From positions 1 to 24,575 of the IMG/VR virus record IMGVR_UViG_3300027286_000013: a stretch of DNA of 24,575 nt; one strand, 5' to 3'. Numbering within the stretch: the stretch's first letter is position 1; each line of letters starts with the position of its first letter. Both the position numbers and the translations under genes were made by a program. This DNA comes from a virus. Shown here in pieces: positions 11,976 to 24,575 of this stretch. Under the pieces are notes generated by a model that was not told the DNA's origin, ran no database searches, and saw only the letters and a program-made list of their open reading frames with translations.

Positions 11976-12530
11976 ATGGCTGGCTATCTCCTAGACGACC
12001 AATCAATCGCGCGCCTCGCCACGCTCCTGCGTGAGTATGAGGCAGGCAATCTGGCCAATCGTGACCGCAACGTCATGCCACGATCTGGGCCAAGTTATCC
12101 GATCGTGCATGTGGTGCGTGTGACATCGACAACGCCAACATCAGGATACTATCCAGGCAAATTGATGACCTACGTCGCCGCGACTGACACGTGGACCGAC
12201 GATGTCGATATCAAAATCAAGGACATCAACGGTGGTGTGCCGTCAGTGCAAAGATATCTAGGCCGGTATGCAGGGATTAACAGCTACGGCAATCCGGTGT
12301 ACATGGTTATCTTGTCTGGCGGTGGTGGCGAAATCCTGAGCTACGACTACGTCTCATCGATCTCCTGCGTCGATGGCACAATCACACCCAACTACACGAC
12401 CATATGTGTGCCTGGGGCGTACTACTGCACGACGACCACGACGACGACCAGCACTACCTCAAGCACAACAACCACGACCAGTACCGCGGCACCAACGACG
12501 ACTAGCACGACCTCGACGGGTGGCGGATAA
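11976..12530 (+). CDS. Tail-associated protein with Thr-rich C-terminus
   Basis: This 184-aa protein has a folded part, about residues 1-150 (LLDDQSIARLATLLREYEAG, then beta-rich YPGKLMTYVAATDTW and GRYAGINSYGNPVYMV). It ends with a Cys (PGAYYC151) and then a Thr/Ser tract, residues 152-181, interrupted by AAP and closed by GGG. The tract repeats the arrangement seen on the head-closure protein. AGGAGG lies 10 nt before the ATG. The stop overlaps the next gene as TAATG. The function is unknown; a tail-tip or fibre-attachment role is inferred from position. Confidence 0.65.
   Translation: MAGYLLDDQSIARLATLLREYEAGNLANRDRNVMPRSGPSYPIVHVVRVTSTTPTSGYYPGKLMTYVAATDTWTDDVDIKIKDINGGVPSVQRYLGRYAGINSYGNPVYMVILSGGGGEILSYDYVSSISCVDGTITPNYTTICVPGAYYCTTTTTTTSTTSSTTTTTSTAAPTTTSTTSTGGG
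12429..12518 (+). repeat. ACN/AGC tract encoding a Thr/Ser tail
   Basis: Thirty codons of Thr and Ser, with one Ala-Ala-Pro, form the C-terminus of the 11976-12530 product. Synonymous codons are mixed (ACG, ACC, ACA, ACT, AGC, TCA), so slippage alone does not explain the tract. Confidence 0.9.
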
Positions 12531-13738
12531 TGAGCACGATGCCGCCAACGACCTCGAGCACGTCGAGTAGTAGCTCGTCTAGTAGCTCGTCATCGACGAC
12601 CTCGAGCACGAGCAGCTCCACCAGCTCGACCACGTCATCGACGACCTCGAGCACGACAACGACGACAACAACTCCATGCGACCTATTTTGCACGTACACA
12701 TGGAACGGCGCGGCATGGGTATTAACGTATAGCCTGTGCGCTGAAGGTTGCTATTGCGGATATCCTCCATCTGAGCCGGGTGCTTATGTTGGCCAGGAAG
12801 CCTTTGCGTTTTGTCAAAACTCTCCGACTACCACGACAACCAGCACAACAACCACAACCACAACAACCAGCACAACCAGCACTGCGCCGCCGACCACGAC
12901 AACGACGACCAGCACGGGCACCACGACATCATCGACTACGACTAGCAGCACATCCTCGACCACGACGACAACCACAACCGAGCAACCCTGCACCGGCTCA
13001 TGCACGTGGCAATGGCGCGCAGAATTACAGAAATGGATCAAGATCTCTGGCGGTAACGGCACGTGCTCGACGGGGTGCTCGTGCTCGTATCCTGCCAGTA
13101 ATGGCACTACGGATGGTGAGTATGCGACGCCAGCGTGCAAGAGGCTGACTTGCACAAAGTGTTGCGGGAATGTAAATGAAACCTGCTGCCCGTTAATAAT
13201 TGGATGCTGCGCGTCGCCGCTTACGTTACCTCATGTGATTTATGCTACTTTTACAGATCCAAATTCAATTTGTCCGTGTCTTGATGGCATGTCGTTTCAA
13301 CTAAGGCATTCAATCACAAATACAACACCAGGAGTGGAAAAAGAGCACATTTACAGATACAGGCCTGATCTTTTAATTTTTCCACAACCTGCAACCTGTA
13401 ATGGCAATGAATCCGTCATCAATTGTAGCGGAGTTCCGACCTATTTTTACAACGCCTGCTATTCGTTTGGAATGAGTTTTATTATCACCGAAAACTTGCT
13501 CAATAACACATGCAGCTATTTGTTTGTTTGGTATTTTGCGACTCAACGATTTTCGGCAAAAAGTCAGTTTACAGCAACTGGAAATACTGGTTTGTGCGAT
13601 TCGCCATTGTTTATTCAATGGAATCAAATTGATCTTTTTAAAGTTGATGGGCTTGAAAATCCTTTTAATTGTTTTCCCAACCCACCAGTAGCTATTGGCA
13701 CCACATCACAGGCCCTAACTTTGACAATCACGCCATGA
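12530..13738 (+). CDS. Modular Thr-rich, Cys-module tail fibre/adhesin candidate
   Basis: This 402-aa protein is clearly modular. Residues 2-49 are Ser/Thr tract. Residues 50-95 form a Cys module (C50-x3-C54, C70-x3-C74-x-C76, C95) and 99-150 a second Thr tract. Residues 154-203 are a second copy of the module (C154-x3-C158, C179-x3-C183-x-C185, C203) with conserved Trp residues. A C-terminal domain (about 207-402) begins TCTKCCGN...CCPLIIGCC and contains CPCLDGMSFQL. That last domain is visibly AT-richer (from about 13150) than everything around it, suggesting recent replacement. I infer a host-binding or surface-exposed tail protein. Similar Cys modules occur, in my recollection, in planctomycete and phage proteins. 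No enzymatic motif is seen. Confidence 0.7.
   Translation: MSTMPPTTSSTSSSSSSSSSSSTTSSTSSSTSSTTSSTTSSTTTTTTTPCDLFCTYTWNGAAWVLTYSLCAEGCYCGYPPSEPGAYVGQEAFAFCQNSPTTTTTSTTTTTTTTSTTSTAPPTTTTTTSTGTTTSSTTTSSTSSTTTTTTTEQPCTGSCTWQWRAELQKWIKISGGNGTCSTGCSCSYPASNGTTDGEYATPACKRLTCTKCCGNVNETCCPLIIGCCASPLTLPHVIYATFTDPNSICPCLDGMSFQLRHSITNTTPGVEKEHIYRYRPDLLIFPQPATCNGNESVINCSGVPTYFYNACYSFGMSFIITENLLNNTCSYLFVWYFATQRFSAKSQFTATGNTGLCDSPLFIQWNQIDLFKVDGLENPFNCFPNPPVAIGTTSQALTLTITP
12545..12676 (+). repeat. Thr/Ser codon tract, first copy in fibre candidate
   Basis: This tract encodes the N-terminal Ser/Thr stretch. Short internal near-repeats are visible (for example ACGACCTCGAGCACG, occurring twice). It codes first for Ser-rich, then for Thr-rich sequence. 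Confidence 0.88.
12824..12979 (+). repeat. Thr codon tract, second copy in fibre candidate
   Basis: About 52 codons, almost all Thr or Ser with one Ala-Pro-Pro and one Gly, link the two Cys modules. It includes the peptide pattern TSTAPPTTTTTTSTG, close to the TAAPTTT...GG tails of the two other genes. Confidence 0.88.
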
Positions 13739-19268: not shown

Positions 19269-19476
19269 ATGTAGCCCTCAGCATCTCGAGGCATCGGATC
19301 GCCTTGTCGATATCCTGCACGCCATTTTTAAGCGTATGACGCCAGACGTATTTGGCCGCATTGCCAGCAAGGTATGCTCGATATCCGAGAACACCGAGCC
19401 CTGCCAATTGCGCCCGAGCGCAATCGACATCAGAGCCATCACGCGGATCATAATGAGCCGGGTTGATCGGATCCAT
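19255..19476 (-). CDS. DUF3310-family protein
   Basis: The protein (73 aa) has the family pattern INPAHYDPRDGSDVDCARAQLAGLG, then GYRAYLAGNAAKYVWRHTLKNGVQDIDKAIRCLEML. DUF3310 proteins are common in phage early regions and have been described as nucleotide-kinase-like, though their activity is not well established. The ATG at 19476 has an excellent ribosome site (TAGGAGGATGGGGT). It overlaps the sigma-factor gene by 29 nt. Confidence 0.85.
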   Translation of the reverse strand: MDPINPAHYDPRDGSDVDCARAQLAGLGVLGYRAYLAGNAAKYVWRHTLKNGVQDIDKAIRCLEMLRATYDQQ

Positions 19477-19963
19477 ACCCCATCCTCCTAAGAACGCGCC
19501 TCAGGCGTTGTACTGCGTTGCGCCAGTTGCGTGACACTGCTGCTCGCACCTGCCCTAAGTCTTGAGCGGCAGATGCAAACGACTTATCATTGAGCCATGC
19601 CTCGACTGCATATCGCTCGTGTGGCAGGCAATATAGTAAAGCCTTGCCAACATCTCTAGCCACGACCATTGAGTGCTCTTCAGATCCGATGATGTCCTCA
19701 TATGGAGCAGCTAGATCGTAGTCGCCGATCGTGCCCACTCGCATCGTTTTGCGCCGCTCGATCTGGCGCTTGACATGATGCGAGCGCTCACGACGAACGA
19801 TCTGGTATACCCATGTCGAAAAGGCACCACGGGCAGGGTCGTAGGAGTCCATGTGTCCGAGTATCCATGCGATCATCGATTGTGTCCAGTCCTCAGGATC
19901 TAGGTCGATTGGCTGGAATCGTCGCGCGGCTGCGTACACAAGCCGTAACTGATCGTCAGTCAT
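19448..19963 (-). CDS. Sigma-70-like RNA polymerase sigma factor
   Basis: The product is 171 aa from ATG 19963, which overlaps the upstream stop by 8 nt. A longer frame to 20032 lies inside the previous gene and is not favoured. Residues ~20-66 resemble sigma region 2 (DPEDWTQSMIAWILGHMDSYDPARGAFSTWVYQIVRRERSHHVKR). Residues ~105-158 resemble region 4, a helix-turn-helix (LPHERYAVEAWLNDKSFASAAQDLGQVRAAVSRNWRNAVQRLRRVL). Like ECF/SigZ-type factors it lacks regions 1 and 3. It should redirect host RNA polymerase, probably to late phage promoters. Confidence 0.85.
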   Translation of the reverse strand: MTDDQLRLVYAAARRFQPIDLDPEDWTQSMIAWILGHMDSYDPARGAFSTWVYQIVRRERSHHVKRQIERRKTMRVGTIGDYDLAAPYEDIIGSEEHSMVVARDVGKALLYCLPHERYAVEAWLNDKSFASAAQDLGQVRAAVSRNWRNAVQRLRRVLRRMGYGSDQPGSL

Positions 19964-20342
19964 AACACTCTCTACAGTATGGTCGGAGATGCCCAGTGCC
20001 ATCGTCCTTGCTGCCGCCATACTCCTCGACACGATCGCGCGCCCACAAGGGCAAGCTTTTTTTATTGCGAGTCATTGCCCGCCTGCAATTGCAACAATCC
20101 ATGATGATCGCATCCTCAGGCAATTGCAGCACACGACCTGATGCGTCCATGGTCGAGACCACGACTCCGCTATCCTGCATGCGATCACGCACCTCGAGGT
20201 ATTGCTGACGAGCCAGCAATAGAGCCTTGGCCTCAGTCGCATCGATGCGCTCGATGCCCCGGCGACCCTCCTGCGGCACAGTACTCGATGGTCGTGTCGC
20301 TCGGACAGATACGCGGATCTGATCATCAGGATGTGTCGCCAT
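19956..20342 (-). CDS. Zinc-binding protein, function unknown
   Basis: The N-terminal half (128 aa in total) is polar and helical (DATEAKALLLARQQYLEVRDRM). The C-terminus carries C-C-x-C (MDCCNCRRAMTRNKKS) and a second pair, C-x2-C (RPYCRECYD), typical of a zinc ribbon. It could bind DNA or RNA polymerase, and it is co-transcribed with a sigma factor. GATGGGG lies 8 nt before the ATG. Confidence 0.7.
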   Translation of the reverse strand: MATHPDDQIRVSVRATRPSSTVPQEGRRGIERIDATEAKALLLARQQYLEVRDRMQDSGVVVSTMDASGRVLQLPEDAIIMDCCNCRRAMTRNKKSLPLWARDRVEEYGGSKDDGTGHLRPYCRECYD

Positions 20343-20700: not shown

Positions 20701-20910
20701 TCATCCAAAGCGATTAAAAACACGTCTGATCACATAGCTACGTAATAATGAGATCAGCGTGAAAACCAATCCTATCATCAGATTTTTTTCCAGCGAAACA
20801 TCAATTCCCATTATAGGAAAAACGATTAATTGCGCGACAACCGCGCACCAATACCCGATCAGTATATTGGTGGCAGACTCGATCAGACTAGAGAATTTAC
20901 TCTGACTCAT
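20701..20910 (-). CDS. Two-TM membrane protein (DUF7220-like)
   Basis: From ATG 20910 the product is 69 aa, MSQSKFSSLIESATNILIG..., with two hydrophobic segments (NILIGYWCAVVAQLIVFPIMGI and NLMIGLVFTLISLLRSYVI). It closes with RRVFNRF. The pattern 'SxxEsxTNxxIG...FPxxGI...N...G..FT..S..RSY..RR.FN' is a widespread small phage membrane protein family of unknown role. Upstream ATGs (20919, 20928) lie inside the helicase-methylase gene. The DNA is AT-rich like that gene, suggesting they travel together. Confidence 0.75.
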   Translation of the reverse strand: MSQSKFSSLIESATNILIGYWCAVVAQLIVFPIMGIDVSLEKNLMIGLVFTLISLLRSYVIRRVFNRFG

Positions 20911-23158
20911 CGGAAGCATCGCATTCAATTAAATCTAATTCATTATCAATGGAATCAAATAATCCTTTAGACTTTGTTTTTATTGCATTCTTCAAATTGG
21001 CGCATGCTTGTTTCCAATAAGATTCTTTGAGTTCGATTCCAATAAACTTACGATCCATTGACAGACTCACATAGCCTTCTGATCCAATGCCACCAAATGG
21101 CGACAGAATAAGATCATTCGGATTACTATACATTCGCAAAGATCGTTTTATGACTTCAAGCTGCAATGGGCAAATATGCCTTTCGTCATTGTCTTCGCGC
21201 GCGCTCGCTTTTTGTAGTGTGTTTGATGGATTGATGTCCATCCAAATAGGCGATGCTATTTTCTGCCATTCGAGAACAGGAAAATCTTTTGGATCATGCT
21301 CAACCGGATTAGCATTAACTCCTGGCTTTCGCAATGTCACTAGGTAATCTGGTATGCCCTGACGACTCATGCATGAGTCTTTTTTTAGTTGCTTCCACAA
21401 CAGGCCAATAGCTTTGGTGCGCTGCATGGCAACTACGGGATCTTTCCAGATGCAGACTTCCGAATGATATACCCAACCCTCCTCAACGTGAATTCTAATT
21501 AGTTCGCCTCGAAAATCACGCAAGCCAATCTCACCGTGAGATCCCTTGAACGATGGAAGATTCATGCAGTGGAAGCTAGTCAATCGGCCCGGCTTGGTTA
21601 CGCGGAATATTTCTTTAACTAAGAAACGATAATGAGACAAGAATTCATCATCGTTCTTTGTATTGCCCATGTCACGAGTAGATGCGGAATACGTATATAG
21701 ACTGGCAAACGGAGGGCTGTAAATTGAATAGTCGATCGAATTAGAAGAAAGCGTTTTGGTTTCTTCGACACAATCTCCTAATCGCATTTCCCAATTCCTA
21801 TCGCCTTCAAAGTCTGTTCTAAAATCCACTTGCAACCTATCCTTTCTGTTGAGTTCAATCTCGGTAAATACGCTAGTCTCACGAATCATTTCCAGCGCCA
21901 TTGCTTTGGCTTGCCTGTCTTTTCTTTCAATGTTGGCAACCACATTGCCTTCAATGTCAGCGGCAACAAAATAAATATGTACATCTCTTTTTTGGCCAAA
22001 ACGCCAGCAGCGGCGAATTGCTTGATAGACTTGCTCCCATGAGTCATTGAGACCAACAAAAACCATTCTGGCGCAGTGCTGCCAGTTCAGGCCAAAGCCG
22101 CACATTGAAGGTTTACTAATCAAAACCTTGATCTTTCCATTTGCAAAATCGCGAAGGATCTCTTCTTTCTTTTCTTCCGTTTGATTGCCGCGCAACTCAA
22201 CTGCGGATGGTATCGCCTTGGCAAGAGCTTCCGATTCGCCATTTAAATGGCACCATACAACCCACGTCTCATTAGGATTAGCGTTGACGATTTCTTTAGC
22301 TTTATCAACACGATCGCTAGTAGTAATCCGTTTCGCCTTAAGCCGCTCTTGCAGTGTTTGCGCCTCAAGAACAAACAATTCGCCAGGCATTTTCTGGTCG
22401 CTGGTAATCATTGCCAAATGCTGTTCTAGTTTTGGCAAAACATGCATTGATCCGTCATAACCTAGATCAGATGGCGACTGCAAAAGGACTGCCCATTCGC
22501 ATACCCATTTCCAAAAATGAGTACCAGCATGGCCCTTTAATCGCCATTTCTGAGTCTCCGCTCCATCATGCACAAAATATGTCGCAAGCATTTCAGCGCG
22601 CGAACAAACGCCTAGGAATTCGGCATGCGATGCCAATTCCATCCAATCGTTTGGAGCAGGAGTGGCTGTTGATGCGAGGCGAAACTGAATTGATTGCGAG
22701 AAGTCAATCAATTCTTTTTTAGTGCCTCCATCATGATGCTTAATTATTGATGACTCATCGAGCACAATACCGCCAAACATTCCACCGTTTTGGAATCTAG
22801 TCAACTTGGCATAATTGGTGACATAGATAATTGGTTGATCGCATTCAATTGGCGAAGATGCGCGCATCGCATGTAAGCCGAATCGTTCGGCTTCGGCAAC
22901 AATTTGATCAGCAACTGCTAGTGGAGCCAGAATTAAAACAGGCTTGCCAGTGTATTTTGCTACGGCATTAGCCCATACCAATTCCATAATTGTTTTGCCA
23001 AGTCCAGTACCGGCAAAAATACATGCTCGACCTTTGCGCAATGCCCATTTAATTATTGCTATTTGATAATCAAATAGCTCTTCAGGCATTTCTGATTCTG
23101 GCACTGATTCAAATTGAACTAGCTTCTGTTTGCTAGCCAAGAATTCTTCATAATCCAT
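20897..23158 (-). CDS. SF2 helicase - DNA methyltransferase fusion
   Basis: This is a 753-aa bifunctional protein. The helicase half (residues ~25-430) has FDYQ (29-32), GTGLGKT (50-56), LDESS (133-137, DEAD-like), STATP (163-167) and QAIRRCWRFGQ (379-389, motif VI). The methyltransferase half (about 455-725) has SPPF (481-484, amino-methyltransferase motif IV) and SPFGGIGSEG (686-695, SAM-binding motif I). The motif order (IV before I) is beta-class, so N6-adenine or N4-cytosine methylation is expected. Phages use such proteins against host restriction. There is no nuclease motif, so it is not a self-contained restriction enzyme. The gene is AT-rich relative to the late region and starts just downstream of the structured repeat, with AGTAGGG as ribosome site. 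Confidence 0.9.
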   Translation of the reverse strand: MDYEEFLASKQKLVQFESVPESEMPEELFDYQIAIIKWALRKGRACIFAGTGLGKTIMELVWANAVAKYTGKPVLILAPLAVADQIVAEAERFGLHAMRASSPIECDQPIIYVTNYAKLTRFQNGGMFGGIVLDESSIIKHHDGGTKKELIDFSQSIQFRLASTATPAPNDWMELASHAEFLGVCSRAEMLATYFVHDGAETQKWRLKGHAGTHFWKWVCEWAVLLQSPSDLGYDGSMHVLPKLEQHLAMITSDQKMPGELFVLEAQTLQERLKAKRITTSDRVDKAKEIVNANPNETWVVWCHLNGESEALAKAIPSAVELRGNQTEEKKEEILRDFANGKIKVLISKPSMCGFGLNWQHCARMVFVGLNDSWEQVYQAIRRCWRFGQKRDVHIYFVAADIEGNVVANIERKDRQAKAMALEMIRETSVFTEIELNRKDRLQVDFRTDFEGDRNWEMRLGDCVEETKTLSSNSIDYSIYSPPFASLYTYSASTRDMGNTKNDDEFLSHYRFLVKEIFRVTKPGRLTSFHCMNLPSFKGSHGEIGLRDFRGELIRIHVEEGWVYHSEVCIWKDPVVAMQRTKAIGLLWKQLKKDSCMSRQGIPDYLVTLRKPGVNANPVEHDPKDFPVLEWQKIASPIWMDINPSNTLQKASAREDNDERHICPLQLEVIKRSLRMYSNPNDLILSPFGGIGSEGYVSLSMDRKFIGIELKESYWKQACANLKNAIKTKSKGLFDSIDNELDLIECDASDESE

Positions 23159-23182: not shown

Positions 23183-23294
23183 ATCAAACAACCGCAAAGC
23201 GCGGCATCTCACGCCCGACCTCCGACAGTGGGCTAGTGTCCGATCACACACGTGAGAGCGATAGGTGACCGGGTACCTACCGCACCCCCGAAGC
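23183..23294 (-). ncRNA. Candidate structured cis-regulatory RNA, copy 1
   Basis: This lies upstream of the helicase-methyltransferase start (23158). On the - strand a 9-bp hairpin (23275-23283 with 23258-23266) is followed by an 8-bp long-range pairing (23250-23257 with 23207-23214). The latter encloses a GACA/TGTC stem. A CCGC-GCTTT-GCGG hairpin (23192-23204) and then TTGTTT follow. Compared with copy 2 it is 89% identical over 103 nt and lacks a 20-nt hairpin. G-T wobbles in two stems favour the - strand as the transcribed one. No known riboswitch is recognised. Confidence 0.6.
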
Positions 23295-23339
23295 CTCGGC
23301 GCAAACTTGGCTAATGCGCCACCGGTCCTAGGGAATTTA

Positions 23340-23424
23340 AACGGTGACCATGGATGACAGTTCAGCGGCAGCATGCCCGCGGATTGCCTCGCTACAACGA
23401 GCAGCAAGGCCCATGGTCACCGTT
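23340..23424. other. Inverted repeat, possible three-way-junction structure
   Basis: A perfect 14-bp inverted repeat, AACGGTGACCATGG (23340-23353) and its complement (23411-23424), surrounds 57 nt. The interior holds two further hairpins: TTGC-CTCG...CGAG-CA-GCAA (near 23384-23407) and a GCGG...CCGC stem (near 23365-23380). It lies 13 nt past the stop of the zinc-ribbon gene. On the - strand it is followed by TTTAAATT, so it may be a terminator, an RNA structure or a protein-binding site. The 279-base gap 23159-23437 holds only this and RNA copy 1; I see no gene in it. Confidence 0.6.
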
Positions 23425-23437
23425 GGCTCATGTAGTC

Positions 23438-23584
23438 TCAATCCGAGTACACATCTTCTCGCTCCATCTCAGCGTCGCCGTTAGTCTCGCGCCAACATGC
23501 GCGACAAAGACCATCCGCGATCATGACTCGCTGAGCGCCACACTGGGCGCAGGAGTCCTTGTGGTCAATCCATGGGTCTGTCAT
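23438..23584 (-). CDS. Small zinc-ribbon protein (48 aa)
   Basis: The frame encodes MTDPWIDHKDSCAQCGAQRV...GLCRACWRE and an acidic tail ending EREDVYSD. C12-x2-C15 and C27-x2-C30 form a zinc ribbon of the usual spacing. The ATG overlaps the stop of the ParB-like gene (TAATG), and AAAGG lies upstream. Its base composition is GC-rich like the phage backbone, unlike both flanking AT-rich genes. It could be a small transcription regulator, but there is no direct evidence. Confidence 0.72.
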   Translation of the reverse strand: MTDPWIDHKDSCAQCGAQRVMIADGLCRACWRETNGDAEMEREDVYSD

Positions 23585-24429
23585 TAGTTACCTTTCAAAA
23601 TATCCATGACAGGATTCAAAACTGATTGAAGATCATAATTGCGCAAACGCCTAAACTGAGAACATGCAGGGTCAAACAAATTAAGTGCTGCGTTAAAAAA
23701 GTCACGCCTGCCTTTGTTACCGCGGTTATAGGCTTTACGCTCACGATCCAAAGAGCGGAAAAATGTAAGATGTATTGGCGGAGCTGTGCCTTCATTGTTA
23801 AGTAAATATCTTAAACTATTTTGACAGTAATCTCTGTTTTTATCATTTGACAACCATGACGCAACATAAGCAGCACGTACAGGGCACGGCACTCGACTGT
23901 TTTGAACACACAAAATGCCACCATCACGCTCAGCGTATTGAATCCACACTGCATACTGTTTAGCTTCTGCAACAGAAGTTCTTTTGGATTCGCCAATTTC
24001 AACTAGCAATCTAATACATGCCGCTGTTTCGCGATGTATACCAGACACATCAGCCAATGATCGTTTGTTGCCCGTGTCCATTACCTCATAGGTTGCTGGA
24101 TCAGCATCAAGGACAATTGCCATTTTGGCGGGCATGTCAGCTTGAACGATTGCTTGCAATCTGTGCTGACCATTGAGCAATCGGCCACACACGGAAAATA
24201 CCACTGGCTGAGGATTTTCGTACCATGAGCCATTTCTAATTTGAGCTGCTAAATGCGCCACATTTTTAAGCGATATGTTTCGATTGTCGATGTTGTTGTG
24301 CGCCATAATACTCTTTGCGAGATCCGGCGGTATCTCGACAAAATGGGCCGTGCTGCTAGTCGGCATCAAGGTTAGACCTCGAAGCTTAGAAATGTTCCCC
24401 ATTCTAACTGCTAATTCTATCATGTTCAT
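23584..24429 (-). CDS. ParB-like nuclease-domain protein
   Basis: The 281-aa protein has the ParB/Srx-type core: VAHLAAQIRNGSWYENPQPVVF, then GRLLNGQHRLQAI (N86-G-Q-H-R90), and VMDTGNKRSLADVSG. A helical C-terminal region (about 130-275) without a clear HTH follows. Phage ParB-like proteins of this 'NGQHRL' kind are common; some have nuclease or DNA-modification roles, and here the function is undetermined. A strong ribosome site (AAGGAGCAGCA) precedes the ATG. The gene is AT-rich and sits between the two copies of the structured RNA element. Confidence 0.82.
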   Translation of the reverse strand: MNMIELAVRMGNISKLRGLTLMPTSSTAHFVEIPPDLAKSIMAHNNIDNRNISLKNVAHLAAQIRNGSWYENPQPVVFSVCGRLLNGQHRLQAIVQADMPAKMAIVLDADPATYEVMDTGNKRSLADVSGIHRETAACIRLLVEIGESKRTSVAEAKQYAVWIQYAERDGGILCVQNSRVPCPVRAAYVASWLSNDKNRDYCQNSLRYLLNNEGTAPPIHLTFFRSLDRERKAYNRGNKGRRDFFNAALNLFDPACSQFRRLRNYDLQSVLNPVMDILKGN

Positions 24430-24443
24430 TGCTGCTCCTTATC

Positions 24444-24575
24444 ATCGAACAACCGCAAAGCGCGGCATCTCACGCCCCACCTCCGACAGTGAGTTAATGT
24501 CCGCTCGTAGCGTGCCCGCTACGATCACACGCGTGAGAGCGATGAGTGACTGGGTACTCACCGCACCTGGGAAGC
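24444..24575 (-). ncRNA. Candidate structured cis-regulatory RNA, copy 2
   Basis: This lies upstream of the ParB-like start (24429) and runs to the window edge, so it may extend further. The architecture is that of copy 1: a 9-bp hairpin (24556-24564 with 24539-24547) and an 8-bp long-range stem (24531-24538 with 24468-24475). A CCGC-GCTTT-GCGG hairpin (24453-24465) follows. It has one extra 8-bp hairpin, 24505-24512 with 24517-24524. The 9-bp stem differs from copy 1 at two pairs, and both are compensatory (AG/CT to GA/TC). Confidence 0.6.

Follow-up and report, generated by a model that had tools for sequence, protein, structure and literature searches.

A pseudoknotted structured RNA, probably an orphan cis-acting leader, at an exchangeable-cassette locus of a phage lineage

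The DNA analysed here, a 24,575-base IMG/VR record referred to as the window, belongs to a tailed phage and contains terminase, portal and tape measure genes. It carries two copies of an element that folds as RNA from one strand and lies at a fixed position before start codons, independently of the identity of the gene behind it. On comparative grounds, its conserved helices with compensatory changes identify it as a structured RNA, and it would best be read as an orphan leader RNA that acts in cis at a locus of exchangeable cassettes. We give a probability of roughly 0.55 to the proposal that the element is a cis-acting leader RNA of this phage lineage which binds a factor and sets the expression of the cassette genes. 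The initial annotation had spoken of a conserved structured 5' leader, and this description agrees with the lack of an Rfam match, the covarying homologues and the same-strand position before start codons reported below.

Both copies lie on the - strand. In an alignment, the repeats at 23183-23285 and 24444-24566 were identical at 92 of 103 positions apart from one 20-nt insertion, and a blastn search of one copy against the record recovered the other with E=1.7e-23. The copy ends are 24 and 14 nt away from the start codons at 23158 and 24429, and the copies contain a 9-bp stem (GCGGUAGGU/ACCUAUCGC versus GCGGUGAGU/ACUCAUCGC) and an 8-bp stem (UCUCACGU/C with GCGUGAGA), all of it as described in the initial annotation. 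The extent given there for copy 1 held only in part: the repeat was borne out, but its boundary had been drawn too short, as the core comprises 23205-23337 and thus reaches about 50 nt further 5'. In addition, the stretch 3' of GAGATG (CCGCGCTTTGCGGTTGTT), which had been taken as invariant from two copies, lies outside the core and is elsewhere either replaced outright or altered in its loop. The core of copy 1 (23205-23337, - strand, type A) has the full length of 133 nt, scores 127.9 bits with the covariance model and ends in an AUG triplet (23207-23205). The core of copy 2 (24466-24575, - strand, type B; 95.3 bits, truncated 5') lacks its 5' part, as the contig stops short at 24575; it is continued in a contig from sample 3300027290 (L011/L143), where the core is complete. 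Contigs L003, L015, L192, L204 and L247 likewise begin or end inside the element, and such breaks are expected, since sequence common to copies or strains breaks assembly. Elsewhere in the window, at 12430-12980, there are degenerate direct repeats which are apparently a Thr/Ser-rich coding stretch of a structural gene.

The core RNA, with a length of about 133-149 nt, consists of an internal-looped hairpin (H2), a second hairpin (P1), a stem (P2) enclosing two further hairpins (a and b), and a pseudoknot, amounting to 44 pairs in seven helices (H2 outer, H2 inner, P1, P2, a, b and pseudoknot) over 19 distinct cores. On the - strand of copy 1, H2 spans 23285-23334 (letters checked), with the outer helix formed by 23334-23330/23289-23285, the inner helix by 23321-23316/23302-23297, and the internal loop by AGGACCGG/AGGCUUC. 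P1, a hairpin of 9 bp with the loop ACCCGGUC, is found at 23258-23283 in copy 1 and at 24539-24564 in copy 2 (both - strand). Stem P2 and its enclosed hairpins occupy 23207-23257 of copy 1 (- strand), P2 itself corresponding to 23257-23250/23214-23207, hairpin a to 23249-23236 and hairpin b, which has one C-C mismatch in this copy, to 23232-23215; in copy 2, P2 is formed by 24538-24531/24475-24468 (- strand). The pseudoknot connects the 8-nt P1 loop back to the H2 internal loop by 6 bp (GACYGG with CCRGUC). In copy 1, its 3' strand CCGGUC in the P1 loop (23267-23272, - strand) pairs with GACCGG at 23327-23322, and in types B and C CCAGUC pairs with GACUGG. RNAalifold independently predicts the same nested helices, along with a different closure of the H2 internal loop, with which the pseudoknot would be in competition. 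An extra pairing of CUUC (columns 47-50) with GRRG (columns 137-140) may also form, as it fits all rows except one L205A pair.

Structure statistics were taken over the 19 distinct cores, corresponding to 835 pair cells, 99.9% of which are standard pairs. Changes on both sides of a pair occur in 13 of the 44 pairs and in 84 cells, although the independent events are fewer than these cell counts, several of the double changes representing a single split between A and B/C in sequences that come from one phage lineage and are closely related within each of these two groups. None of 500 shuffled controls reached 84 two-sided cells, and when the partners were slid by 1-3 columns at most 14 such cells and 47% pairing were obtained. 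The two-sided changes affect three of the five pairs of the H2 outer helix, including a switch from CCUGG/CCCAGG to CCCCG/CGGGG among type C sequences that show no other difference; they also affect two pairs of the fully paired P1 and are present in P2, hairpin a and hairpin b. The pseudoknot is 100% paired in the 19 sequences, with one double change from C-G to U-A. In an unbiased test of 10,011 six-column antiparallel windows, ten were found to pair in every sequence, of which nine are the nested helices or their shifts and the tenth is the pseudoknot. Extra support by covariation comes from L006, L198, L206 and L211. Hence, the reading as covarying RNA stands, while the pseudoknot is absent from the initial annotation and could not have been revealed by two copies. 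On the sense strand, there are 58 G-U cells and no A-C cells, and therefore the folded RNA is the - strand, i.e. the coding strand of the downstream gene. Since the core lengths fall into all three residues modulo 3, the core is not translated as a whole.

The first relatives were obtained with a 19-base pattern from the common 3' half, which yielded 14 more viral contigs, and the set was enlarged by further patterns and by searching with the gene that precedes site 1 (see below). In this way, the element was found in 36 IMG/VR contigs including the window, plus a fragment in L247, so that the proposed check for covarying homologues came out positive, with 35 further contigs and strong covariation. 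The sequences fall into three types, A, B and C, copy 1 of the window belonging to A and copy 2 to B. In type C, both inner hairpins differ in sequence, and type B is a mosaic of a C-like 5' half and an A-like 3' half. The element is absent from the 50,697 isolate phages and 72,556 plasmids searched, and an origin from bacterial genomes was discarded, as all 48 matches in a genome scan were due to chance according to their profile score; the pattern matches L208-L210, L213-L222, L255 and L258 were chance matches, too. With the covariance model, nothing was detected in 1.04 Mb of loci with helicase homologues, and only the L247 fragment among terminase relatives and other phage groups with the CCAUGG module described below. 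Within the data searched, the element is thus restricted to a single phage lineage. An earlier hint at a planctomycete host was not substantiated: no isolate phage with the element was found, and even the closest relatives of the phage proteins are far removed. The suggested comparison with Rfam 15 gave no matches at the gathering threshold, and no plausible match even at permissive E-values, for the window and six related loci.

With regard to its genomic setting, the element precedes the start codon by 24-46 nt, on the same strand, in every one of the 27 distinct junctions for which a cargo start was identified; a place just before start codons had been noted from two copies in the initial annotation. 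It occurs at two sites. Site 1 is located after a 238-aa gene, whose stop shortly precedes the element, and before the cassette gene, and all loci of the 238-aa gene with enough flank carry the element. Site 2 is located after the CCAUGG module, where a type A element is present in some phages only. The gene behind copy 1 (20897-23158, - strand) codes for a SNF2/ResIII-type helicase fused to an N6_N4 DNA methyltransferase (753 aa; Pfam, PHROGs), and the one behind copy 2 (23584-24429, - strand) for 281 aa assigned to phrog_5931. The label 'ParB-like' for the latter stems from the initial annotation; no Pfam family matches. Altogether, seven families were found downstream of the element: phrog_5931, helicase-methyltransferase, nuclease-like, phrog_4652, two without matches and a conserved MRPLWQ gene. 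Gene family and element type are unlinked; the families F30, F31 and F50/F50b are each found behind both type A and type C elements, which argues that genes were exchanged behind the element. The cassette genes of the window have a G+C content of about 37-48% compared to 53-62% in their neighbours. Each cargo gene has its own ribosome-binding site, which is not consistently masked in the predicted ensembles (nested structures without pseudoknot). No promoter-like sites above chance were detected in the element region. The window also codes for a phage sigma-70 region 2 protein (19448-20032; Pfam E=1.4e-10) on the - strand, as the cassette genes. Between the upstream stop and the core at site 1, three more hairpins were seen in L173, L190-L207, L211 and L235 (loop UGCUUA; GACUC/GAGUC; UGCCGGA/UCCGGCA), the first with some compensating changes.

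On its 3' side, the core of copy 1 is followed by hairpin c (CCGC-GCUUU-GCGG; 23191-23205, - strand) and UUGUUUG, an optional part outside the core that is terminator-like at chance level. Hairpin c with a U-run is present only in most type A and B copies and is missing or altered in others, and it is replaced in L013, L191, L194, L195, L201, L203 and L235; as it is not conserved, hairpin c was rejected as an intrinsic terminator. Directly 5' of copy 1, there is a second structured module (23342-23425, - strand) with a conserved CUGAACUGUCAU and a 12-bp CCAUGG stem (23422-23411/23353-23342) that is 99.4% paired and changed on both sides in four pairs. In phages without the type A element, this module has an intact U-tract behind it and so resembles an intrinsic terminator. 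It has no Rfam match. The CCAUGG module with an invariant UGAACUGUCAUCCAUGG was also seen in L005, L193, L065, L238-L254, L248, L253 and L263, with a U-tract after it in many loci; its occurrence extends to two more groups of phages, in which other genes follow it. As the empty site ACCGTTTTTGTTTG compared to the filled one looked exact, a precise insertion or an intron of group I-like type was considered for the CCAUGG terminator; this was rejected, since site 1 has a different flank and yet shows the same GCGGTTGTTTG end. In the interval from the CCAUGG module to a helicase gene, L065 (about 1770-1840), L066 and L067 carry a D-arm-less tRNA-like fold with a GGTTCGATTCC T-arm and CUA in the anticodon-like loop, which is also found in L242, L250, L252, L254, L256, L257 and L259. 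Its acceptor stem keeps pairing (TGCGGG/CCTGCA, TGCGAA/TTTGCA, TGCAAG/CTTGCA), and a similar fold precedes the CCAUGG module in L248, L253 and L263. Neither ARAGORN nor Rfam called a tRNA, and its identity as tRNA was thus rejected.

How the element would act as a leader can be outlined as follows. Transcription of the - strand would place it on the mRNA of the accessory gene behind, where the RNA would fold into H2, P1 and P2 with the two inner hairpins, tied together by the pseudoknot between H2 loop and P1 loop. The folded leader may then bind a factor, either a protein of phage or host origin or, with lower probability, a small molecule, and would in this way set the expression of the cassette gene that lies 24-46 nt further on, whatever its identity. 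Our guess would be that the leader acts on the stability or processing of the mRNA or by modification of RNA polymerase; a mere masking of ribosome-binding sites is disfavoured because each gene has its own site, which is not consistently occluded. No expression platform in form of a conserved terminator or a masked ribosome-binding site was found at the element-gene junctions. The element looks, from the arrangement of the loci, like a general-purpose control leader rather than a single-gene switch. Against the leader reading, the cargo genes share no pathway, which is unusual for a metabolite riboswitch. The seven unrelated downstream families do not point to one pathway and lower the standing of the metabolite riboswitch class, albeit phage cargo can vary. 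A transcription attenuator is the least supported class, since the sole terminator-like hairpin is not conserved and no conserved intrinsic terminator lies between core and gene.

Several other explanations have to be weighed against a leader RNA. The element could act as punctuation between the replication genes and the accessory cassette, i.e. as an mRNA processing or protective element without sensing, be it a nuclease-resistant fold, RNase-processed or self-cleaving. Its gene-independent position between cistrons, shortly after the stop codon at site 1, and the D-arm-less tRNA-like fold at the same place in L065-L067, L242, L250 and others are in line with this idea, but no known ribozyme or RNase signature and no Rfam ribozyme match were found. 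In addition, the P1/P2/P3 helix order of HDV-like ribozymes is matched only partly: a hairpin loop holds the second strand of the pseudoknot, and in all rows the first base of the outer helix is a pyrimidine and not G; we regard this explanation as rather unlikely. An independent small non-coding RNA that happens to neighbour the cassette genes is distinctly less probable. Its complexity would go beyond the need of a plain leader, and GOLLD and other phage-associated RNAs are non-coding RNAs, but the 3' end of our element lacks a conserved terminator, and in all junctions seen the element is sense to the gene and just 24-46 nt away from its start codon.

Elements that are nearly identical are followed by different cassettes, the boundary at GAGATG being sharp, and this raises the question of an element acting at the DNA level, by single-stranded DNA hairpins or as an integron-like recombination site for cassette exchange, and the mosaic of C (5') and A (3') in type B as well as the contigs breaking inside the element would fit such a role. 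The G-U cells without A-C cells, however, point to one RNA strand, neither copy region contains integron attC core sites (RYYYAAC/GTTRRRY), no linked recombinase was found among the genes surveyed, and homologous recombination via common sequence needs no dedicated site, which makes a DNA-level function quite improbable. Slightly more doubtful still is control by a short peptide whose translation would start at the terminal AUG of the core, served by the GGAGG of hairpin b, and would gate the cargo gene. The AUG is invariant in all cores, the SD-like GGAGG lies about 10 nt upstream of it in types A and B, and the frame fuses to the cargo gene in L191, L194, L201 and L203, but the encoded peptides are not alike (MPRFAVV, MP, MLRVCKGV, MFSVMLDFKEFY), and in L003 and L015 the frame is shifted by indels in the loop; for these reasons, the peptide MPRFAVV was discarded as a conserved feature. 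Neither this mini-ORF nor hairpin c has the degree of conservation to be expected of the functional part.

Returning to the cis-acting leader as the preferred reading, sequence comparison would assign the element to a known kind of structured RNA, but as a new class with the unusual trait of being linked to a genomic position instead of a gene family. Where an orphan structured RNA combines a pseudoknot with strong covariation, it is often a device that binds a ligand or a protein. A position-bound leader suggests that phages can control newly acquired accessory genes at once, by exchange behind it. More tentatively, and with the odds against it, a universal leader might mark a cassette-entry locus at which genes that recombine in come under shared RNA control, with other folded modules, namely the CCAUGG terminator-like RNA and the D-arm-less tRNA-like RNA, being interchangeable with it in related phages. 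If this were true, one phage or host factor reading these folds would control a changing set of accessory genes. The element offers a defined fold of 133-149 nt, two sites and several natural variants for direct tests.

Among known systems, the put RNA of phage HK022 and the EAR element mediate processive antitermination in cis, early in the transcript and largely independently of the genes. Our element resembles them as a structured RNA that would act in cis and largely independently of the downstream genes, but differs from them by the lack of an Rfam match and of any sign of terminator read-through. The T4 gene 32 leader contains an autoregulatory pseudoknot by which one gene is controlled by its own product. 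It is likewise a phage leader with a pseudoknot upstream of the start codon, but since the cargo genes differ, autoregulation by a cargo product is unlikely in our case. With theta ribozymes, which are HDV-like, pseudoknotted phage RNAs (PMC10879173), the element has in common the pseudoknot and, in relatives of the locus, tRNA-like folds next to the gene, whereas its helix order and the start of its outer helix do not fit the nested double pseudoknot and no called tRNA is adjacent. The SAS/ESAS of cluster K mycobacteriophages are repeats just upstream of the starts of variable non-structural genes, about half of them with inverted repeats (PMC3203893). Our element is also repeated shortly before the start codons of variable phage genes; unlike the 13-bp SAS (GGGATAGGAGCCC), of which no match was found with up to 2 mismatches, it is >130 nt long, pseudoknotted and does not include the gene's own ribosome-binding site. 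The manA and wcaG motifs, finally, are structured RNAs of cyanophages in potential 5' UTRs of several unrelated genes, for which the paper did not establish a function (PMC2864571). By analogy, they appear to be the closest working likeness, as phage-borne structured RNAs before several unrelated genes, with the difference that they precede metabolic genes in marine phages, whereas the element described here, which matches no Rfam family, precedes helicase-methyltransferase, nuclease-like and other cargo.
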